This document shows, one piece after another, positions 39,956 to 50,575 of a stretch of DNA of 64,000 nt. Position 1 is the stretch's first letter, and each line of letters starts with the position of its first letter. The stretch comes from Chryseobacterium sp. JM1 (lineage in GTDB: Bacteria > Bacteroidota > Bacteroidia > Flavobacteriales > Weeksellaceae). The notes below the pieces were generated by a model. It saw only the letters and a list, made by a program, of their open reading frames with translations. It ran no database searches and was not told where the DNA came from. The stretch lies in assembly GCF_000737715.1 (NCBI RefSeq), contig NZ_JPRN01000024.1, positions 1-64,000 on the forward strand, read 5' to 3'. Both the position numbers and the translations under genes were made by a program.

Positions 39956-40178
39956 AGATGTGTAAAATAGATATGGGTATTCAATCAACCTGCGTAAAAA
40001 AGATACAGGTTCTTAGCTGACCTGTGTAAAAAAGATATAGGTTGGTATTTTTCCTGTACAATAGCAACCTGAGTAAAAGAGATACAGGTATTCGATTGAC
40101 CTGCGTAAATTAGACACAGGTTCTTGGCTGACGTGTGTAAAATAATACAAGGTCAACCTGCGTAAAAAGAGGCTAGGT
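39956..40178 (+). repeat. Array of seven 23-bp iteron-like repeats
   Basis: Copies start at 39956, 39988, 40020, 40067, 40099, 40131 and 40156, each 23 bp. Consensus: ACCTGYGTAAAA followed by WAGATACAGGT, with inverted ends ACCTG/CAGGT. Four of six steps are exactly 32 bp (about three helical turns). Some spacers share a TTCTTRGCTG string. The first copy is the most diverged. There is no coding frame across them. This is the form of an iteron replication origin or a cooperative operator array, ~420 bp ahead of two HTH genes. Confidence 0.8.
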
Positions 40179-40310
40179 GTTATTTTCATCATTTGTCATC
40201 TTCCAAAACAGATTTATAAAAAATAGATGTTGGTTTTCAGTTAATTACATAATAATTATGATTCTATTTTTCTGTTTTAGTGCTCTGAAATAACATTCGT
40301 TGATTTTAGC

Positions 40311-40377
40311 GGCAAGATGTGTCTTTGTATATACAAACTTTTCAAGTTTTATATCCAAAGACGCTCTTGCCTTTTTT
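40311..40377 (+). terminator. Large hairpin with T6 tail upstream of HTH genes
   Basis: GGCAAGA (40311-40317) with TCTTGCC (40365-40371) and GTCTTTG (40321-40327) with CAAAGAC (40356-40362), plus an AT-rich upper stem, followed by TTTTTT (40372-40377). It could terminate transcripts from the iteron region or act as an attenuator for the genes at 40600. Confidence 0.6.
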
Positions 40378-40531
40378 GCAAAAAGGGAAAAAAACTGCGG
40401 AACTTGTTTTTTGTTTTTCTTAAAATTGGTTTAAAGATTCCAAATCATTCTTATTTATTCTTTTTTAATCTCCACCTATTTCCAAATTATTCCAGATTGT
40501 TCTTATTCAATCCAACTCCCTTTAACACTCT

Positions 40532-40562
40532 TGTTTTAACGATTTTGATGTTCCAATTTTGC
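40532..40562 (+). promoter_or_regulatory. Likely promoter of the HTH gene pair
   Basis: TTG (40532-40534), 20 nt, CAATTTTG (40555-40562), one mismatch from TAnnTTTG, 37 nt before the ATG at 40600. Confidence 0.4.
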
Positions 40563-40599
40563 AAAAGAAATTTTAATCAAAAACAAAAATGAAGAAATT

Positions 40600-40860
40600 A
40601 TGAGAGTAAACCTTGTTACCAAAGAAGACCTTCAGGAGTTCAAAACCGAATTGCTTGAAGACATTAAAAATCTTTTTAATATCAAAATTTCAGAGCAGAA
40701 ATTATGGCTGCGTTCATCAGAGGTCAAAGAACTTCTGAAAATTTCTACCGGAACATTACAAAATCTTCGTGTCAGTGGAACTTTATCCTACACTCGTGTT
40801 GGAGGCACAATATATTACAATTACAAAGACATCGAGAAAATGTTAAATGGCAAAGGATAA
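40600..40860 (+). CDS. HTH_17/excisionase-like DNA-binding protein
   Basis: An 86-aa protein. After a short coiled N-terminus (KEDLQEFKTELLEDIKNLF), residues ~40-83 are a winged MerR-like HTH_17 domain: LWLRSSEVKELLKIST, TLQNLRVSGTLSYTRVGGT, YYNYKDIEKML. Proteins of this kind are excisionases or control factors of Bacteroidetes mobile elements. It is 15 nt upstream of the next gene and downstream of the iterons and hairpin, making it a candidate to bind one of them. Confidence 0.8.
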   Translation: MRVNLVTKEDLQEFKTELLEDIKNLFNIKISEQKLWLRSSEVKELLKISTGTLQNLRVSGTLSYTRVGGTIYYNYKDIEKMLNGKG

Positions 40861-40875
40861 TTTATTAGTAACAAA

Positions 40876-41208
40876 ATGAATTACATAAAACATCTCACAG
40901 GTTTCTATGAAAAGGTGGCTCAAGATAGTACACTTAATCCCACACACATCAGCCTCTACTTAGCATTATTCCAATTCTGGAATTTCAACCGTTTCCGAAA
41001 TCCGGTCAGTATTTCACGGGATGAAGTGATGCGAATCAGTAAAATACACTCAAAAGCCACCTATCACAAATGCCTTAAGAATCTTCATTCTTCGGGCTAT
41101 ATTGATTATCAACCGTCTTATAATCCATTCAAAGGAAGTCAGGTTTTTATGCTTGATTTTGCGGGGGAATTGAAGCCCACTCCTAAGCAAATAAGAATCA
41201 AAAATTAA
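40876..41208 (+). CDS. Winged-HTH mobile-element protein
   Basis: A 110-aa protein of a kind commonly paired with the excisionase-like gene in Bacteroidetes integrative elements. HISLYLALFQFWNFNRF and a winged-helix segment SISRDEVMRISKIHSKATYHKCLKNLHSSGYIDY are seen, the latter resembling replication-initiator or regulator wHTH domains. No enzyme motif. It probably acts in regulation, excision or replication of the island (inference). Together with the iterons it is the only replication-like module in the element. Confidence 0.65.
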   Translation: MNYIKHLTGFYEKVAQDSTLNPTHISLYLALFQFWNFNRFRNPVSISRDEVMRISKIHSKATYHKCLKNLHSSGYIDYQPSYNPFKGSQVFMLDFAGELKPTPKQIRIKN

Positions 41209-41330
41209 ATTTCTTCTGAATTTCCCAAGTGCTAGTTAATAGCAGACGTTATTTGGCGACATTTTATGGACTTATGCATTATGACAATTATTTTTCAATA
41301 TCAATTTTATTATTTTTAGCTATTTTAGCA

Positions 41331-41359
41331 TTGTATGCATCTAACATTTTTTATCTTTG
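41331..41359 (+). promoter_or_regulatory. hsdM promoter
   Basis: TTG (41331-41333), 18 nt, TATCTTTG (41352-41359): full consensus match, 24 nt before the hsdM ATG. Confidence 0.7.
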
Positions 41360-41382
41360 AGGATTAACATTAATGATACTAA

Positions 41383-42951
41383 ATGTCAGAAGAACAAAGA
41401 CGTCAGTTGCAACAGCAACTTTGGAATATAGCCAATACTTTAAGAGGGAAAATGGACGCCGACGAATTTCGGGATTATATTTTAGGATTTATTTTCTATA
41501 AATATCTGTCCGAAAAGATTCATTTTACAGCCAATAAAATTTTATTAGATTCAGGAGAAGACATCGACTATAATGACGTTGATGAAAATACTGAAGAAGG
41601 AAAAGAAATCGTTCAGGCAATTTATGAAGAGGTTGTTGAAGATTTAGGATATTTCTTAAAACCATCAGAACTTTTCAGTAATATTGCTAAAAAAGGTCAT
41701 CAAAAAGAGGAAGGTAAATCAAATTTTATCCTTGCAGAACTTTCAAAGATTCTTACTAATATTGAGCAGTCCACTTTAGGTACTGATAGTGAAGACGATT
41801 TTGACAATCTTTTTGAAGATTTGGATTTAACATCTTCCAAATTAGGAAAAACTGAAGACGAGAAAAATACTCTTATTTCCAAAGTGTTGTATCATCTGGA
41901 TGATATTGATTTCAATCTTTCTGATACCAATGCCGATGTTTTAGGCGACGCTTATGAATATCTCATTTCACAATTTGCCAGTGGTGCAGGTAAGAAAGCA
42001 GGCGAATTCTACACACCTCAACAAGTTTCTACCATTTTGGCTAGAATCGTTACCAGCAGAAAATCCCAGTTGAAATCCGTTTATGATCCGACTTGCGGAA
42101 GTGGTTCTTTGCTCCTTCGTGTTGCCCGTGAAGCAAAAGTAAGTGATTTCTATGGTCAGGAAATGAACCGAACCACTTATAACTTGGCGCGAATGAATAT
42201 GATTCTACACGGTGTCAATTACAGTAATTTCGATATCAAGCAGGAAGATACGCTTGAAAAACCTCAACACCTTGATAAAACGTTTGATGCTATTGTTGCC
42301 AATCCGCCCTTTTCTGCGAATTGGAGTAGCAATGAACTTTTATTGTTAGATGAGCGTTTCTCACAATATGGAAAATTAGCTCCGGCTTCCAAAGCTGATT
42401 TTGCTTTTATCCAGCATATGATTCATCATTTGGATGAGAACGGAATTATGGCAGTTGTAATGCCTCACGGAGTTTTGTTCCGTGGTGCAGCGGAATTGGT
42501 TATTCGTAAATATCTTATTAAAGAGAAAAATTATCTGGATGCTGTAATCGGTTTACCTGCCAATATTTTCTTTGGTACCAGCATTCCTACTTGTATATTG
42601 GTTTTCAAGAAATGCCGAGAGCAAGATGAAGATGTTCTGTTCGTGGATGCCAGCAAAGAATTTGAAAAGCAAAAAAATCAAAATATCTTGCTTCCAAAAC
42701 ATATCAATAAAATTGTTGATATGTACCAAGAAAGAAAAACGGAAGATAAATTCTCTCATCTCGCTACTTTGCAGGAGATTGCCGAAAATGATTACAACCT
42801 GAATATCCCTCGTTATGTAGATACTTTTGAGGAAGAAGAAGAAATTGACATCCAAGCGGTAATGGCAGAAATCAAAGTTTTGGAAGCCAAACGTGTCGAA
42901 CTCGATAGTGAAATTGAAGTTTATTTAAAAGAATTAGGATTAGTAAGTTAA
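41383..42951 (+). CDS. hsdM: Type I restriction-modification methyltransferase subunit HsdM
   Basis: A 522-aa N6-adenine methyltransferase. An N-terminal HsdM_N helical domain (RRQLQQQLWNIANTLRGKMDADEF) precedes the methylase domain with SAM motif I DPTCGSGSLL (~236-245) and catalytic NPPF (~306-309). A C-terminal helix contacts HsdS. It resembles EcoR124-type (IC) HsdM. With HsdS it methylates both strands of a bipartite site, and with HsdR it forms the restriction complex. hsdS follows after 58 nt. Confidence 0.95.
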   Translation: MSEEQRRQLQQQLWNIANTLRGKMDADEFRDYILGFIFYKYLSEKIHFTANKILLDSGEDIDYNDVDENTEEGKEIVQAIYEEVVEDLGYFLKPSELFSNIAKKGHQKEEGKSNFILAELSKILTNIEQSTLGTDSEDDFDNLFEDLDLTSSKLGKTEDEKNTLISKVLYHLDDIDFNLSDTNADVLGDAYEYLISQFASGAGKKAGEFYTPQQVSTILARIVTSRKSQLKSVYDPTCGSGSLLLRVAREAKVSDFYGQEMNRTTYNLARMNMILHGVNYSNFDIKQEDTLEKPQHLDKTFDAIVANPPFSANWSSNELLLLDERFSQYGKLAPASKADFAFIQHMIHHLDENGIMAVVMPHGVLFRGAAELVIRKYLIKEKNYLDAVIGLPANIFFGTSIPTCILVFKKCREQDEDVLFVDASKEFEKQKNQNILLPKHINKIVDMYQERKTEDKFSHLATLQEIAENDYNLNIPRYVDTFEEEEEIDIQAVMAEIKVLEAKRVELDSEIEVYLKELGLVS

Positions 42952-43009
42952 ATTTTTTTTGACTTTAGAATATCCTTAATTTTTATAGCAGTAACAATAA
43001 ATTATCAAG

Positions 43010-44161
43010 ATGACAGAAAAAAATAAAAGTATCAGAAATTTTCCAACTTTGCGATTTCCAGAGTTTAAAGAAGAGTGGGAAAGGAAGAAGTTGGGGGGAA
43101 TTGCTAAATTTTCAAAAGGAAAAGGAATTTCAAAAATTGACATTGATGAAAATGGAGAAACAGAATGTGTCAGATATGGAGAACTATATACTCATTACGG
43201 AGAAGTTATCACGGATATAAAATCAAAAACAAATATTGACAAATCAAGTTTGGTACTCAGTGAGGGAAATGATGTAATTATTCCCGCTTCTGGAGAAACT
43301 CAAATAGATATTGCAACAGCATCTTGCGTATTGAAATCTGGTGTTGCTCTAGGTGGAGATTTGAATATTATAAAAACCTCAAATGACGGGGTATTTCTTT
43401 CATATTATTTGAACAGTAAAAAGAAAATGGATATAGCGAGACTATCGCAAGGAATTTCTGTTGTTCACCTATATTCAAGCCAATTAGCTTTATTGACGTT
43501 AAATCTACCTAAATTAGATGAACAAAGAAAAATTGCTTCTTTTTTGTCCCTTTTAGATGAGAGAATAAGATTATCAATGAAAATAATTGAGGTTTTAAGA
43601 ACACTAAAGATTGAAACACGCAAAAGGCTGATTACCAAAATTATTAAAGATGAGTATGAACCTTTATTGATCAAAGAAATTTTAAATTATGAACAGCCAA
43701 CAAAATATATCGTTACAAGTACAGATTATTCATCTGATAAGACATTAATTCCTGTTTTAACTGCAAATAAAGCCTTTGTTTTGGGATATACTGATGAAAA
43801 TTTTGGAATTTACGATAAAGGGAATTGTATAATTTTAGACGATTTTACAATGGATTTGAAATATGTAGACTTTTCATTTAAGGTAAAATCTTCTGCAATT
43901 AAACTTTTGACAGCAAAAGAAGGAGTTAATTTGAAATATGTTTTTGAATATTTTTCTTTTCTAAATTTTTCATCTAGCGAACATAAACGACATTATATTT
44001 CTGAAATCGAACAAATTTCTATTATTTTACCACCTTTAGAAATACAAAATAAAATAGCGAACTATTTTTCAAAAATTGATGAAAAACTAAAGACTGAAAG
44101 GGATATTTACGATTTACTTGTTCAACAAAAAACGTATTTGCTTGCCAATTTATTCGTCTAA
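43010..44161 (+). CDS. hsdS: Type I specificity subunit HsdS (expressed copy)
   Basis: A 383-aa protein with two target-recognition domains separated by conserved helices (LDEQRKIASFLSLLDERIRLSMKII, ~165-190; a second set LEIQNKIANYFSKIDEKLKTERDI near the C-terminus). Codons 1-10 lie outside, and codons 11-23 (FPTLRFPEFKEEW) inside, a 39-bp sequence repeated inverted at 45405. The second recognition domain is unlike that of the silent copy. This copy is in line with hsdM and has an ATG, so it sets the current DNA specificity. Confidence 0.92.
   Translation: MTEKNKSIRNFPTLRFPEFKEEWERKKLGGIAKFSKGKGISKIDIDENGETECVRYGELYTHYGEVITDIKSKTNIDKSSLVLSEGNDVIIPASGETQIDIATASCVLKSGVALGGDLNIIKTSNDGVFLSYYLNSKKKMDIARLSQGISVVHLYSSQLALLTLNLPKLDEQRKIASFLSLLDERIRLSMKIIEVLRTLKIETRKRLITKIIKDEYEPLLIKEILNYEQPTKYIVTSTDYSSDKTLIPVLTANKAFVLGYTDENFGIYDKGNCIILDDFTMDLKYVDFSFKVKSSAIKLLTAKEGVNLKYVFEYFSFLNFSSSEHKRHYISEIEQISIILPPLEIQNKIANYFSKIDEKLKTERDIYDLLVQQKTYLLANLFV
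43040..43078 (+). repeat. Left inverted repeat of hsdS inversion system (39 bp)
   Basis: Identical over 39 bp to the reverse complement of 45405-45443. It begins on a codon boundary of hsdS (codon 11, Phe) and encodes FPTLRFPEFKEEW, so inversion keeps the reading frame. Confidence 0.92.
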
Positions 44162-44166
44162 AACGT

Positions 44167-44196
44167 AGCCTGTCAAGGTTCAAACCTTGACAGGCT
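44167..44196. terminator. Bidirectional terminator between convergent hsdS genes
   Basis: AGCCTGTCAAGGTT (44167-44180), CA loop, AACCTTGACAGGCT (44183-44196): a perfect 14-bp stem exactly between the two hsdS stop codons. Confidence 0.8.
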
Positions 44197-44198
44197 GG

Positions 44199-45434
44199 TT
44201 AAATAAAAAGATTTGCCAAAAGGTATTTCTTTTGAGTTTCGTATTGAGCTAAAATTTTCTTTTCTGTTTCGATTTTCTTTTCAATTAAAGAAAAAAAATC
44301 TCCTATAACTTTTTGTTCTGACAAGGTTGGGAGAACAATTTCAACATTAGAAAACGACTTAACTGATATTGTAAATCTTGTACTTCCTGTCGCAAATTTT
44401 GATAACTGGCTTAAAACGATTGGAACATTACAGAAGTAATTAGAATACAATATGTTAATTTCAATCTTTGGTCTAAAACGCATCAAATGATAACTAAACA
44501 CAGCATTTTCAAGATTTTCAGAAATAACGACAGAATGACCAATATCATCAGGTGTTTCTGATGATGGAGTAAAAAGAATATCTCCTTTTCTTAGATTGCA
44601 ACTAATAATTTGCTGTTCTTTTGCAGTTACTTTTTGAAATGATTTTATTGTATTAGAGTTTATATCTTCGTGTCTATAAACGTTCATATAATTCACTAAA
44701 TAAACCTCATTTTCGTTTTCTCTCGAAAGCTTATCAATACTACTTGTTTGAAAACTTCCAATTTCGCCGAGTTTTAATTTTTTCCAATCAGGGAAATCAT
44801 ATCCTTGCTCATCTTTAAATCTTAATTTTTGAGAAAAAATATTTACACGGCTTACCCTCATTGAGGTTTCTAATTTCTCAATTATTTTCCTTTGGGTTGA
44901 AATTCTATTATCTATAAGAGATAAAAAGCCAGCTATCATATCTTGCTCGATAAGTGAAGGAAAATATAAAACTATTGAGCTCAGGATCTCTTGTCCAACA
45001 TTAAATCTTGTACTTCCTCCGGATTTTGATGTAATACTATCTCTCGCAGAACTAGTTTTTAAAAGTTTGTTAAAAAAAATGGGATTATAATTACCAATCT
45101 TTTTTCCCCTAATTACAAATCCACCGAATGTTGCATTATTTTCTTTATCAAGATAAACATTTGCTGTTCCCACTTCTTCCCTTGTTTCTGAACTTCTTTG
45201 AAAAAGTACATCTCCATATTGAACAGAAAATTTTTCTATTATATTTTTATCAACATCAACTTTTCCAACAATATTTTCATAGATAATAAAGTCATTATTT
45301 AAAATATCTAAAACATTAATAAACTTAACTCCTTTTCCATATTGTTCTTTTGATGCATTAATTCCATTCTTAAATTCTAATAAATTCCCTAATTTATTTG
45401 GTTTCCACTCTTCTTTAAACTCTGGAAATCGCAA
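44199..45434 (-). CDS. Silent hsdS cassette (alternative specificity)
   Basis: About 411 codons of full HsdS: TRD1 after FPEFKEEWKPNKLG, central helices EQDMIAGFLSLIDNRISTQRKI, TRD2 after DFPDWKKLKLG, and C-terminal EQKVIGDFFSLIEKKIETEKKI. The frame has no ATG: it is open back to a stop near 45467, and only a TTG inside the inverted repeat could start it. No promoter consensus is visible. It is therefore probably unexpressed until inversion of 43040-45443 places it behind the start codon at 43010. After inversion the joined reading frame would be intact. Confidence 0.88.
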   Translation of the reverse strand: MRFPEFKEEWKPNKLGNLLEFKNGINASKEQYGKGVKFINVLDILNNDFIIYENIVGKVDVDKNIIEKFSVQYGDVLFQRSSETREEVGTANVYLDKENNATFGGFVIRGKKIGNYNPIFFNKLLKTSSARDSITSKSGGSTRFNVGQEILSSIVLYFPSLIEQDMIAGFLSLIDNRISTQRKIIEKLETSMRVSRVNIFSQKLRFKDEQGYDFPDWKKLKLGEIGSFQTSSIDKLSRENENEVYLVNYMNVYRHEDINSNTIKSFQKVTAKEQQIISCNLRKGDILFTPSSETPDDIGHSVVISENLENAVFSYHLMRFRPKIEINILYSNYFCNVPIVLSQLSKFATGSTRFTISVKSFSNVEIVLPTLSEQKVIGDFFSLIEKKIETEKKILAQYETQKKYLLANLFI

Positions 45435-45443
45435 AGTTGGAAA
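45405..45443 (-). repeat. Right inverted repeat of hsdS inversion system (39 bp)
   Basis: Reverse complement identical to 43040-43078. It lies at the 5' end of the silent cassette, 110 bp from the recombinase gene. Confidence 0.92.
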
Positions 45444-45552
45444 CCTAAAGATTAATGATTTCCAATCTTAAATTTTACAGAGTTTTCTTCTCAAATCCTT
45501 TATTCATACCTTTTTTGATTTTTAATAATAATTTAAAATCAAAAAGAAAATT

Positions 45553-46479
45553 ATGACGACACAAAAAACATTTGCTCAAATCGTGGAATTATGGAAAAAA
45601 GACAAACAACTTTATGTGAAAAAATCAAGTTTTTCGGCTTATGTGCTTTTGCTGGAGAACCATTTGTTACCCAAATTTGCTGAAGTAAGTAGCATAGAAG
45701 AAGAGGAAGTTCAGCAATTTGTTTTTCAAAAATTGGAACAGGGATTGAGCCAGAAAAGCATCAAAGATGTTCTTATCGTTTTGAAAATGGTAATGAAATT
45801 TGGGGCAAAGTATAAGTGGATTCAATACACACCATTTGACATCCAATATCCAACAGTTCGGGAAAATCAGAGTATTGAAGTTCTGACCAGAACCCATCAG
45901 AAAAAAGTAATGAATTATATTCAGGAGCATTTTACATTCCGGAATCTTGGGGTTTATATTTGTCTTTGTTCGGGAATGAGAATTGGAGAAATCTGCGCAC
46001 TCACTTGGGAAGATATTGATACGGATAACGGGATTATCAACATCAAAAAAACCATTCAGCGAATCTACATTATCGAAGATGGAAAACGCAGAACAGAATT
46101 GCTTCTCGATACACCAAAAACCAAGAACTCAATTCGAGAAGTTCCAATGAGCAGAGACCTTTTGCGAATGTTGAAGCCCTTTAAAAAAATTGTGAATCCT
46201 TTATTTTTTGTTCTAACAAATGATGCCAAACCAACTGAGCCAAGAACTTACCGGAGCTATTATAAAAATCTGATGAAACAACTGGAAATCCCGGAAATTA
46301 AATTCCACGGATTGCGTCATAGTTTTGCAACCCGATGTATTGAAAGCAAATGTGATTATAAAACTGTGAGTGTCCTGCTGGGTCATTCCAATATCAGTAC
46401 AACATTGAATCTTTATGTCCATCCAAATCTAGAACAGAAGAAAAAAGCAATAGATCAAATGTTTAAAGCACTTAAATAG
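45553..46479 (+). CDS. Tyrosine recombinase, probable hsdS invertase
   Basis: A 308-aa tyrosine recombinase with an N-terminal SAM-like core-binding domain (~1-100) and catalytic domain. Visible catalytic residues are the first Arg in CSGMRIGEICAL (~142), HGLRHSFA (HxxR, ~252-255), LGHSNISTT (His) and the nucleophile in LNLYVHP (~288). Its place inside the hsd locus, between the silent hsdS and hsdR, is the standard arrangement of phase-variable type I systems, where such an enzyme inverts hsdS segments. It differs from the island integrase in size and in retaining the first catalytic Arg. Confidence 0.9.
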   Translation: MTTQKTFAQIVELWKKDKQLYVKKSSFSAYVLLLENHLLPKFAEVSSIEEEEVQQFVFQKLEQGLSQKSIKDVLIVLKMVMKFGAKYKWIQYTPFDIQYPTVRENQSIEVLTRTHQKKVMNYIQEHFTFRNLGVYICLCSGMRIGEICALTWEDIDTDNGIINIKKTIQRIYIIEDGKRRTELLLDTPKTKNSIREVPMSRDLLRMLKPFKKIVNPLFFVLTNDAKPTEPRTYRSYYKNLMKQLEIPEIKFHGLRHSFATRCIESKCDYKTVSVLLGHSNISTTLNLYVHPNLEQKKKAIDQMFKALK

Positions 46480-46523
46480 TTTTAGTTATGATATTTTTTG
46501 TTAGATTTGATAAAACTATTAAC

Positions 46524-46560
46524 AACATTGTCAGAGTTTCAAACTCTGACAATGTTTTTT
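46524..46560 (+). terminator. Terminator after recombinase gene
   Basis: AACATTGTCAGAGTTT (46524-46539), C loop, AAACTCTGACAATGTT (46541-46556), then TTTT. It isolates hsdR from the recombinase, so hsdR may need its own promoter or read-through. Confidence 0.85.
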
Positions 46561-46585
46561 TAACCATAAAACTCGTAAACGCAAA

Positions 46586-49444
46586 ATGTCCAGCCAGCCC
46601 GAATATATTCTTGAACAGAAATTAGTAGAACAATTACAGCAGTTAGGTCATAAGCCAGTCAGGATTTGCAATGAAGCAGATTTGATTATCAACCTAAAAA
46701 CTCAGCTCGAAATTCATAATAAAAAACAATTTTCTAATAAAGAATTTGAGAAGATTCTAAATCATCTTGCCAAAGGAAATGTTTTTGAAAAAGCTAAAAT
46801 ATTGCGTGACCGATTTCAGTTTACCAGAGATGACGGGAATTCGGAATGGATTGAATTCATCAATCAGGAAAGCTGGTGTCAGAATCAATTCCAGGTCACA
46901 AATCAAATTGCTCAGGAAGGAGATTATAAAAACCGTTACGATGTCACGATTCTTGTCAACGGTTTACCTTTGGTTCAGATAGAGCTCAAACGCCGTGGTT
47001 TGGAAATGAAAGAGGCTTTCAATCAAATCAACCGTTATCATCATCAGTCATTTAATTCGGGAAAAGGTTTATTCAACTACGTTCAGTTGTTTGTCATTAG
47101 TAACGGGGTCAATACAAAGTATTATTCCAATAACGCCAAGCAGAGTTTTAAACAAACTTTCTTCTGGTTAGACGAGCACAATAATAATATCACACAACTT
47201 GAAGATTTTGCACAGGCATTTTTAGAGCCTTGTCACATTGCCAAGATGATTACGAAATATATCGTGCTTAATCAAACGTATAAAATTTTAATGGTTCTTC
47301 GACCGTACCAATATTATGCGGTAGAAAAAATCGTTGACAGAGTAAGGAATACCGATAATAACGGATTTATCTGGCATACAACGGGTTCGGGTAAAACATT
47401 GACTTCTTTCAAGGCAAGTCAGATTCTCAAAGAAATTCCTAAAGTTGAAAAGGTTGTTTTTGTGGTGGATAGGAAAGATTTGGATTATCAAACGCAAAAA
47501 GAATTTGATGCTTTTGAAAAAGACAGCGTAGATGCTACAGAAAATACGGCACATCTTGTAAAGCAACTTTCTGACAATACAAAACTCATTGTAACAACTT
47601 TACAAAAGCTGAATACCGCAATTACCAAAGAAAAGCACGGTAGAAAAATAGACCGTTTAAAAGACAAAAAAGTTGTATTCATTTTTGATGAATGCCATAG
47701 AAGTCAGTTCGGAGAAACGCATCAAAATATTAAGAAATATTTCCAAAAAGCGCAAATGATTGGCTTTACCGGAACGCCAATTTCGGAAGTGAATTCAGTT
47801 GGTAAAATAGATGGAATTGCTGCAACGACCAATATGCTTTTCAAAGAATGTCTGCATAAATACGTGATTACAGATGCTATCAGAGATGAAAATGTTCTAA
47901 AATTCTCAGTCGAATACGTTGGCAGATACAAAGAAAAAGAAGGTAGTAATACTTACATAGATATGGAAGTTGAAGCTATTGATACTCAAGAGTTATTAGC
48001 AAGTCCAAAGCGTCTGGAGAAAATCGTGGATTACATTATAACGGAACACGATAGAAAAACCCATCAGAAAACATTCAATGCTATGTTCTGTGTGAGTAGC
48101 ATAGATGTTTTGCAGAAATATTATGACCTCTTTCAAAAGAAAAAAGAAGAGGGAAAACACAATTTGAAAATTGCAACCATCTTCAGTTATGGAACTAATG
48201 AAGAAAATAATGATGCAGACGGAAATTATCAGGAAGAAGATGTTTTGTCAATGGTTGCGGAGCCACCTGCAAAATATGGTGATTCACATAGCAGGACTGT
48301 TTTAGATCGATATATTGGTCATTATAATGAAATGTTTGGGATGAACTTTTCTACTAAAGATAGCCAGACTTTTTATAATTATTACAATGACATTGCAAAA
48401 AGAGTCAGAAACAAAGAAGTTGATTTGATTATTGTGGTCAATATGTTTTTGACAGGATTTGACAGTCCGCAATTGAATACTTTATTTGTAGATAAAAACC
48501 TGAAATATCACGGATTGATTCAGGCGTTTTCAAGAACTAATAGAATTATCGGAGAGAAGAAGTCGCAGGGAAATATTGTTTGTTTCCGCAATTTAAAATC
48601 TGCTACAGATGATGCTGTTACTTTATTTTCTAATAAAGAAGCTATACAGGAAATTATCATTCAACCCATTGAAGATTACATTGAACTTTTCAAAAATTCT
48701 TTAGAAAAATTAAAGTTGGTTGCGCCAGAAATTCAAAGTGTAGACACTTATCAAACCGAGCAGGAAAAATTTGAATTCGTTACAGCATTCCGAGAATTGA
48801 TGCGTATTCTAAATGTTTTAAAATCCTTTACAGATTTTAGTTTTGAGCAATTAGAGATGACAGAATTTGAATTTGATGGATATAAAAGTAAATATCTTGA
48901 TATCTGGACTGCAACACATCCCAAAATTTCAGGAGACGGAAAAGTCAGCATTTTAGATGATGTTGATTTTGAATTAGAGCTCATCCACCGTGATGAAATC
49001 AATGTGAGCTATATACTTTCACTATTAGCAAATATTGCAGATATAAAAGGAATTAAACGAGAAGCGAAAATAAAAGAAATTCGTGAAATCCTATCCGGCG
49101 ACGCCCAATTAAGAAGCAAAAAAGAATTAATTGAAAAATTCATAGACGAGAACTTGCCACATATTCCGGACGGCGATGCTGTAAGTGATGAATTTGATAA
49201 TTTCTGGAACAAAGAAAGAACTGATGCTTTTGAGAAAATTGCAGAAGAAGAATCCCTTAATAAAGAGAAATTCCAGGAAACTATTGACAGCTTTCTTTTC
49301 ACTTCTAAAATACCTAAAATGAGCGATGCTCTAAAACTTTTAGAAATAAAACCAAAACTTACGGAACGAAATAATATTGGAAAAAGAATTATCCAAAAAG
49401 TTCAGGATTTTGTGGATGTGTTTATTGATGGAGTGGCTTCGTAA
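46586..49444 (+). CDS. hsdR: Type I restriction endonuclease subunit HsdR
   Basis: A 952-aa protein. The N-terminal PD-(D/E)xK nuclease has NRYDVTILVNG and QIELKRRG (~130-140). The SF2 translocase shows HTTGSGKTLTS (motif I, ~267-277), FDECHRS (motif II, ~368-374), GFTGTPIS (motif III) and FSRTNRI (motif VI). The C-terminal helical domain docks on HsdM. It cleaves DNA lacking HsdM methylation after translocation. EcoR124-type by length and by its partner. The start is 26 nt after the terminator hairpin arm; an upstream TAGATTTG box (46502-46509) lies before that hairpin. Confidence 0.95.
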   Translation: MSSQPEYILEQKLVEQLQQLGHKPVRICNEADLIINLKTQLEIHNKKQFSNKEFEKILNHLAKGNVFEKAKILRDRFQFTRDDGNSEWIEFINQESWCQNQFQVTNQIAQEGDYKNRYDVTILVNGLPLVQIELKRRGLEMKEAFNQINRYHHQSFNSGKGLFNYVQLFVISNGVNTKYYSNNAKQSFKQTFFWLDEHNNNITQLEDFAQAFLEPCHIAKMITKYIVLNQTYKILMVLRPYQYYAVEKIVDRVRNTDNNGFIWHTTGSGKTLTSFKASQILKEIPKVEKVVFVVDRKDLDYQTQKEFDAFEKDSVDATENTAHLVKQLSDNTKLIVTTLQKLNTAITKEKHGRKIDRLKDKKVVFIFDECHRSQFGETHQNIKKYFQKAQMIGFTGTPISEVNSVGKIDGIAATTNMLFKECLHKYVITDAIRDENVLKFSVEYVGRYKEKEGSNTYIDMEVEAIDTQELLASPKRLEKIVDYIITEHDRKTHQKTFNAMFCVSSIDVLQKYYDLFQKKKEEGKHNLKIATIFSYGTNEENNDADGNYQEEDVLSMVAEPPAKYGDSHSRTVLDRYIGHYNEMFGMNFSTKDSQTFYNYYNDIAKRVRNKEVDLIIVVNMFLTGFDSPQLNTLFVDKNLKYHGLIQAFSRTNRIIGEKKSQGNIVCFRNLKSATDDAVTLFSNKEAIQEIIIQPIEDYIELFKNSLEKLKLVAPEIQSVDTYQTEQEKFEFVTAFRELMRILNVLKSFTDFSFEQLEMTEFEFDGYKSKYLDIWTATHPKISGDGKVSILDDVDFELELIHRDEINVSYILSLLANIADIKGIKREAKIKEIREILSGDAQLRSKKELIEKFIDENLPHIPDGDAVSDEFDNFWNKERTDAFEKIAEEESLNKEKFQETIDSFLFTSKIPKMSDALKLLEIKPKLTERNNIGKRIIQKVQDFVDVFIDGVAS

Positions 49445-49519
49445 TCTTATTACGGTTTTCCGTAATTTATAAACTTGTTAAATTAAGAACGAATTAATAT
49501 TAAAAACTTCGATGAACAT

Positions 49520-50575
49520 ATGGATCAATCAGAATTTATTGAGCAACAAAAAGCAATTAATAAGCTAACTGCGTTGGTTAGAAAAGGAGCAACCATTAAA
49601 GATTGCTCACATCCTAGCAAAGAAGAATGTAAACCACCTATCAAAAGTGCACATAGTTTACAACGTCAAGGCTCTTTAAAACATTTGGAGAAAACGATAA
49701 ATAATAATGCATTTATTTATTCACATACGGATAGACAAATTAATAAAAAATACGGTTTCTTAGATTTGAAGCCTATTGGTAGAAAAGACGCATCAACGTT
49801 TTTTGGTTTTTGTGAATTTCACGATACTGAATTATTTAAGGAAGTTGAAAACGACCCTGAAGCGACAGATATTGAAAATGATATGCATTGTTTTCTCCAT
49901 ACCTATAGATCTTTTTCTCATTCGTATCATAGAAAATATGAGGAATATAAACTATTCACTTCAGAGGAAAAGGAAGTTGTAGAACATTTTAACAAAACGT
50001 ATGGGAAAGATAAAGAGGATATTGTCAAAGGAGTAAAGCTAGCTTTAGAAGACTTGGAAATTCCTAAAAAACGTATTGATGATTTATTACTTAATAAAAA
50101 ATACGATGGTCTTAGATACTATTGTTATGAATATTCCTATCGTTGTCCTGTCGCTTGCTCTGGAGTAACAACACCTGGTCATTTTAAAAATGGAGAACCA
50201 TTTAATTTAAGTGAAAATTCAAATAATAAATATTCTGACATTTTTACAACGGTACTGCCATTAAAAGACAGAACAGTAATTATATTAGCTGCTTTTCCTG
50301 AGGACGAATTGGCAATAAAATATTTAGACGAATTAGATACAGTTTCAGATGATTTAGAATTTGAAAAGTATTTATCATTCCATATTATCAATAATTTAGA
50401 AAATGTTTATATCTCTCCATATTTTTATGATAGAAAAGATTATAAATGGAGGCAAAGTTATTGTGAATTAATTAATATTATTTCGAATAAATATACTCCT
50501 TATATTAGATTCAATAAAAGATTTCCTATAAACTATTTTGCAAAAACGGAAAGTATTCGTTCTGAGTTAACTTAA
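49520..50575 (+). CDS. Unrecognised 351-aa Cys/His-containing protein in RM island
   Basis: A soluble protein with no family I can name. The N-terminal part has Cys/His spacing suggestive of metal binding (DCSHPSKEECKPPIKSAHSLQRQGSL, written here in parts: CSHP, EEC, SAHS). DASTFFGFCEFHDTELF (~95-112) is a striking conserved-looking FCxxHD motif, followed by a helical DIENDMHCFLHTYRSFSHS. The C-terminal half is alpha/beta with no motif. The gene sits between hsdR (75 nt) and the DUF262 gene, same strand, so a defence role is likely but unproven. The HS...FCxxHD pattern could be an HNH-like or zinc-bound nuclease site. Confidence 0.55.
   Translation: MDQSEFIEQQKAINKLTALVRKGATIKDCSHPSKEECKPPIKSAHSLQRQGSLKHLEKTINNNAFIYSHTDRQINKKYGFLDLKPIGRKDASTFFGFCEFHDTELFKEVENDPEATDIENDMHCFLHTYRSFSHSYHRKYEEYKLFTSEEKEVVEHFNKTYGKDKEDIVKGVKLALEDLEIPKKRIDDLLLNKKYDGLRYYCYEYSYRCPVACSGVTTPGHFKNGEPFNLSENSNNKYSDIFTTVLPLKDRTVIILAAFPEDELAIKYLDELDTVSDDLEFEKYLSFHIINNLENVYISPYFYDRKDYKWRQSYCELINIISNKYTPYIRFNKRFPINYFAKTESIRSELT

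Follow-up and report, generated by a model that had tools for sequence, protein, structure and literature searches.

A putative recombinase-driven hsdS inversion switch, probably with two states, in a type I restriction-modification locus of Chryseobacterium sp. JM1

The inversion of hsdS specificity genes in type I restriction-modification (R-M) loci is, both as a mechanism and as a kind of switch, already known from other bacteria. In the systems presented by Atack et al. 2020 (PMC7394358), which include those of Porphyromonas gingivalis, Tannerella forsythia and Streptococcus suis, a second gene, hsdS', lies on the opposite strand and lacks both an ATG and a recognised promoter, the inverted repeats are exact and 20 bp or longer, and recombinases are found at several loci, not at all of them. 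Patrick et al. 2010 (PMC3090145) described hsdS shufflons in Bacteroides fragilis, shufflon BB of strain NCTC 9343 and those of strain 638R, in which a tyrosine integrase gene is found next to the last hsdS; the NCTC 9343 shufflon comprises four repeat sets and yields eight forms. At the pneumococcal Spn556II/SpnIII locus, one inversion requires the recombinase PsrA (Li et al. 2016, PMC4948785), and 13 species with inverting type I systems were reported in a read-based survey (PMC5903667). The main text of PMC7394358 does not mention Chryseobacterium, a passage search of PMC5613308 yielded no text on inversion, and a literature search, conducted without the papers' supplements and without two key studies, returned no description of hsdS inversion in a Chryseobacterium type I R-M system. 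A first-pass annotation of the locus reported here had taken the phase-variable design as known, which PMC7394358 bears out, and had judged this instance probably undescribed, with which the search agrees within its limited scope.

The window analysed here is a stretch of 64,000 nucleotides from Chryseobacterium sp. JM1, in which hsdM, hsdS-A, an inverted hsdS-B, a tyrosine recombinase gene and hsdR follow one another as a complete type I R-M locus with a second, distinct hsdS (Table 1). Our main reading, to which, judging from sequence, we assign a probability of roughly 85%, is that the locus constitutes an active, recombinase-driven invertible hsdS switch. We infer that, in this strain, the adjacent tyrosine recombinase would recombine both 39-bp repeats and invert the 2.4-kb segment, that inversion would fuse either hsdS-A or hsdS-B in frame to a fixed 10-codon leader behind hsdM, from where it would be expressed, the other hsdS being left silent without a start codon, and that, with a pair of HsdS proteins differing in both TRDs, the cell would toggle between two motifs and hence two methylation and restriction specificities, with the corresponding biological effect.

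Table 1. Features of the R-M locus and of the proposed invertible segment (positions in the window).
Feature	Positions	Strand	Remarks
hsdM, type I methyltransferase subunit, 522 aa	41383..42951	+	Pfam N6_Mtase and HsdM_N; NCBIfam TIGR00497 hsdM, score above its cut-off
hsdS-A, putatively expressed specificity gene, 383 aa	43010..44161	+	Pfam Methylase_S, 2 stretches
Left 39-bp repeat arm, from codon 11 of hsdS-A	43040..43078	+	first 20 bases are the conserved core of related loci
Degenerate central site in hsdS-A, 13 exact bp still common with hsdS-B	43579..43591	+	positions converted from distances to recombinase start
Hairpin, near-perfect, separating the convergent hsdS stop codons	44167..44196	.	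fold -25.7 kcal/mol on +, z -8.3; -23.6 on -, z -7.3
hsdS-B, silent specificity cassette, 414 codons counted from repeat edge, without ATG	44199..45443	-	Pfam Methylase_S, 2 stretches
Central site kept in hsdS-B	44881..44918	-	27/38 against the B. fragilis shufflon repeat; best of 30 shuffles 24/38
Right 39-bp repeat arm	45405..45443	-	
Tyrosine recombinase, putative invertase, 308 aa	45553..46479	+	Pfam Phage_integrase
Intrinsic terminator-like hairpin 3' of recombinase	46524..46556	+	terminator scan; fold -19.9 kcal/mol, z -7.2
hsdR, type I restriction subunit, 952 aa	46586..49444	+	Pfam HSDR_N, SWI2_SNF2 and EcoR124_C; NCBIfam TIGR00348, score above its cut-off

The hairpin between the two hsdS genes is possibly a terminator; the terminator scan called no T run there and did not list it, and an Rfam scan of 40000-50000 gave no match at the gathering score. 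Upstream of the locus, iteron-like direct repeats around (A/G)ACCTGYGTAAAAA occupy 39959-40168 (five copies of 16 nt, spaced by 32, 47, 32 and 57), followed by a small HTH_17 gene (40600-40860) and by a 110-aa gene without a Pfam match (40876-41208). These repeats could be part of a mobile element bearing the R-M locus. Downstream of hsdR, a 351-aa open frame (49520-50575) matched nothing at E <= 0.001 in Pfam, PADLOC or NCBIfam.

The two arms of the repeat are 100% identical over 39 bp, and a search allowing up to 3 mismatches found these two copies and no further ones in the 5.26-Mb genome. They also form the longest exact inverted repeat in 42952-45552 when arms more than 300 bp apart are considered, 39 bp being set against a maximum of 17 and a mean of 12.3 in 300 first-order Markov simulations, by which a chance origin is ruled out. 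The right arm lies 110 bp from the start of the recombinase gene. Because the ATG of hsdS-A is at 43010, codon 11 begins at base 43040, and codons 1-10 form the fixed leader outside the invertible segment. When 43040-45443 is inverted in silico, this leader is joined in frame to hsdS-B (MTEKNKSIRN-FPTLRFPEFKEEWKPNKLG...) in an open frame of 424 aa, and hsdS-A takes the place of the silent gene, preceded by the in-frame stop that now lies upstream of hsdS-B. Two claims of the first-pass annotation, that the convergent hsdS genes have identical 39-bp inverted repeats in common and that the left one begins at codon 11 and leaves inversion in frame, therefore hold, the arms being exact and unique in the genome and the inverted product open throughout.

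As it stands, hsdS-B has an in-frame TAA 9 codons upstream and neither ATG nor GTG between the repeat and that stop. A TTG inside the repeat, the mechanical ORF start of hsdS-B at 45434, could permit weak translation of the silent gene. The minus-strand gene had been described as having no ATG and no promoter: the first part is read directly from the sequence, and the second is not established by a scan for the sigma-70-type consensus, which may not be the host's and which matched 26 sites against 17.9 +/- 4.8 in shuffles, among them one weak 9-of-12 match directly upstream of hsdS-B (45494-45465, minus strand). Bacteroidota promoters follow a consensus other than the sigma-70 type. As for the encoded proteins, HsdS-A and HsdS-B have 14/17 residues in common at the 5' end, 28/119 aligned residues in TRD1 and 23/110 in TRD2, within segment borders that we set ourselves. 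Since both TRDs have diverged, two different specificities are expected, and the two proteins should recognise different motifs.

The recombinase retains Arg143, Lys189, His252, Arg255, His278 and Tyr288, the conserved R, K, H, R, H and Y that we take to be catalytic; across 51 loci the first Arg is present in 50 and the other five residues in all. The solved structures that scored best by sequence are the Int proteins 6emy, 6en0 and 6emz, and PADLOC gave no match to the protein at E <= 0.001. At E <= 1e-30 the recombinase occurs in 35 of 173 genomes of the genus, and a relative from Prevotella (L061) is 64% identical to it. A scan of genome contigs yielded 67 loci with a markedly constant neighbourhood: hsdR follows the recombinase on the same strand in 63 of the 65 with enough flank (not in L028 and L043), and hsdM lies ahead of it in 38 of 43 (not in L014, L025, L030, L065 and L069). 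Recombinase identity, moreover, tracks HsdM identity (Spearman 0.55 over 51 loci; 0 of 999 permutations).

Some loci depart from this arrangement. L014 (Chryseobacterium pennae) combines a 5' repeat pair, the recombinase and hsdR, and an upstream HsdM match was not found there; in L028, L109 and L061 the best hsdR match lies upstream of hsdM, not 3' of the recombinase, and the same recombinase family here goes with another order of genes. In 16 loci the hsdR match begins not about 1.0 kb but about 1.7-2.4 kb after the recombinase start, so that additional genes lie between recombinase and hsdR in these.

In relatives, the 5' repeat spans codons for V/F-P-N-L-R-F-P, with a core of about KTTCCNAATTTGMGATTTCC. 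We counted this core over the 56 complete loci, that is, those with at least 4 kb upstream, with the window included and three loci left out as duplicates or partial (L112, L113 and L069). The motif is present on the silent side in 39 loci, and 28 have a plus-strand copy that equals the silent one throughout the 20-bp core; identity ends precisely with the core's first base in 21 of them and extends 3-5 bases further in the other 7. By this pattern, which misses some exact repeats (L024, L027, L043, L044, L054 and L067), the remaining 28 loci divide into 3 with a non-identical core, 8 without the motif on the plus strand and 17 without it on the silent side. Exact repeats of just 20-32 bp, found in many relatives, are short for homologous recombination. 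With the window included in both counts, 49 of 54 silent copies lack a start codon in the stretch from the in-frame stop upstream to the core, and an ATG is present in 36 of 37 plus-strand copies.

Codon choice within the core is restricted. Across 52 silent copies identified with a codon-degenerate pattern, Asn is encoded by AAT (46/46), Leu by TTG or TTA (49/52) and Arg by AGA or CGA (51/52); the two Pro codons are unconstrained at their third positions (1.57 and 1.75 bits), and the third positions of the surrounding codons mostly show 1.1-1.8 bits, the exception being TTT at +24 (0.14 bits). Part of the conservation acts at the DNA level, and part perhaps reflects codon usage and a protein motif. 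That the repeat is nothing more than a conserved protein motif, F/V-P-x-L-R-F-P, was considered as an explanation and judged insufficient, without being wholly discarded. When 171 genomes of the genus were searched with the codon-degenerate motif, 50 matches were obtained, 44 of them at recombinase loci as read from coordinates; TTG or TTA for Leu together with AGA or CGA for Arg occurred in 42 of these 44 versus 1 of the 6 others, a weak control, the six being few and of unchecked hsdS identity, and five of them encoding other residues there. A looser motif, with matches in at least 104 of the 171 genomes, was excluded from the counts.

Public assemblies of the relatives are consistent with inversion. 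Contigs end 60-300 bp upstream of the recombinase in 14 of the 67 loci, compared with 0.42 expected (Poisson P about 4e-17) when the 25 other ends found in 837 kb serve as the background, and five of the ends lie inside the core itself (L052, L047, L018, L004 and L015). Contig ends thus pile up at the repeat as mixed orientations would cause, given that mixed orientations would be expected to break assemblies and a 20-60 bp repeat alone would not at usual k-mers. The hsdM contig also ends 101-227 bp past hsdM in four of seven genomes examined (G098, G077, G086 and G137); the recombinase contig of G086 extends upstream by another 2.1 kb, and the HsdM proteins of G137 and the window share only 48% identity. 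Contig ends were compared in five genomes. By script, two contigs of G137, where the public contig name starts with k141, have exactly 141 terminal bases in common, as would be expected of a de Bruijn branch at k = 141; a long common 5' end of both hsdS genes would give the same picture, and a separate contig with the hsdS pair was not found in that genome. The contigs of G077 share 10 bp at their ends, as judged by eye from the printed ends, and in this comparison a long shared end was not found in G064, G098 or G086. Contig breaks have other possible causes, such as long shared 5' ends: in L005 and L063 the repeat arms reach 503 and 513 bp, both hsdS genes share much of TRD1, and a 5' inversion would alter little of the first half.

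Cassettes of the same kind are also found in either orientation. Pairs of genomes carry near-identical segments in opposite orientation (99.5% over 783 bp between L108 and L111; 99.4% over 511 bp between L006 and L100), and the TRD1 of hsdS-A resembles, at 73-76%, both the silent-side TRD1 of six loci (L012, L022, L031, L036, L107 and L111) and the plus-strand TRD1 of six others (L014, L042, L062, L064, L105 and L114). The first-pass annotation had placed a dedicated tyrosine recombinase beside the silent hsdS; the gene is there, and its dedication to the locus finds support in synteny, co-inheritance, the conserved core, the contig breaks of relatives and these cassettes. The arms of the 5' repeat are 6.1 kb apart in L107 and about 3.5 kb apart in L022, L108, L111 and L043, versus 2.4 kb here, and the longer spans would leave room for three or more hsdS cassettes.

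Different numbers of states might result from such a locus, depending on a second repeat in the centre of hsdS. Exact repeats of at least 18 bp were found at the 5' end in 37 of the 56 complete loci, in the centre in 39, at both places in 31 and at neither in 11. Most of the listed central repeats contain AACCCAAAASAAAATAATT or part thereof, and in the four relatives compared 26-30 of 38 bases are as in the B. fragilis hsdS shufflon repeat (PMC3090145). In the window, hsdS-A has no match to this published repeat, the best plus-strand score within 41001-47000, located in the recombinase gene, being 22/38, a value that shuffled sequences also reach. The 5' pair is hence the one intact repeat pair, and the several sets of the B. 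fragilis shufflons are lacking. With the central repeat degenerate, only whole-gene swapping is expected, and on this sequence pattern we consider two states, rather than four, quite probable.

A four-state switch, in which the recombinase would also use the degraded central pair and swap the hsdS halves separately, is an alternative that we hold to be unlikely. The frequency of the central repeat among relatives, alone or with the 5' repeat, speaks for it, as do the site kept in hsdS-B and the 15-bp repeat on which the pneumococcal PsrA works (PMC4948785), which makes a rare central exchange conceivable and possible at this locus too; the 13 bp that the two genes still have in common here, and an hsdS-A centre unlike the published repeat, count against it. 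Retaining the two-state switch for this strain, we put forward, as a tentative conjecture that may well fail, a wider proposal: that a recombinase family of Flavobacteriia, Sphingobacteriia and beyond reads two unlike sites in hsdS, held by selection partly at synonymous positions; that the window represents a four-state shuffler turned into a two-state toggle through loss of the central site in one gene; and that the number of states is set by decay of the sites, not by the enzyme.

The second hsdS could instead be a dead cassette, left as a frozen relic after inversion had ceased. Decay does occur, as the 11 of 56 loci with neither repeat indicate, so that not every locus of this type need be switchable and some may be frozen, and the strain's own contig is unbroken across the segment. 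Against this stand identical 39-bp arms, two open hsdS frames with two Methylase_S stretches each, an inversion product that stays in frame and a recombinase with all six catalytic residues, which together render a relic improbable here. A further alternative is an inversion by RecA-type homologous recombination between the repeats with the adjacent recombinase dispensable, for which it may be said that two of three pneumococcal hsdS inversions (IR2 and IR3) persisted without PsrA (PMC4948785) and that spnIII recombination is, according to the title of the report, independent of all known site-specific recombinases (PMC6620402), and which we regard as improbable in view of the synteny and co-inheritance of the recombinase with the locus, the fixed core, not any repeat, at the repeat edge, and the shortness of the exact repeats in many relatives.

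If the proposed recombinase-driven switch indeed flips, a clonal population would contain two methylomes and, with them, two restriction specificities; effects on phage survival, on DNA uptake and possibly on gene expression would follow, and genetic work on the strain would be confounded. The comparison furthermore provides a simple recipe, the recombinase together with the 20-bp core and the central site, by which switches of this type can be sought in related bacteria and the number of states of each predicted.

The locus agrees with the systems described in the text of PMC7394358 in having a second hsdS that follows the first but is read from the other strand, a perfect inverted repeat in both, a silent copy without ATG and a recombinase gene. 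It differs from the three veterinary pathogens treated there, which have two repeat pairs, one before TRD1 and one between the TRDs, and four forms, whereas here the 5' pair alone is intact and inversion and motifs are predicted. With the pneumococcal Spn556II/SpnIII locus (PMC4948785) it has in common a tyrosine recombinase gene in the locus and hsdS sequence that inverts, here as a proposal, between short repeats; the pneumococcal locus has three hsdS genes, three repeat pairs and another gene order in another phylum. The B. fragilis shufflons (PMC3090145) belong to the same phylum, have a tyrosine integrase gene immediately by the last hsdS and possess a similar central repeat, a likeness of gene position and repeat. 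Unlike NCTC 9343 with its multiple repeat sets and forms, the Chryseobacterium locus has one intact repeat pair, and it is apparently a simpler example of the same kind of switch, probably with two states, among many relatives that have sites for more.
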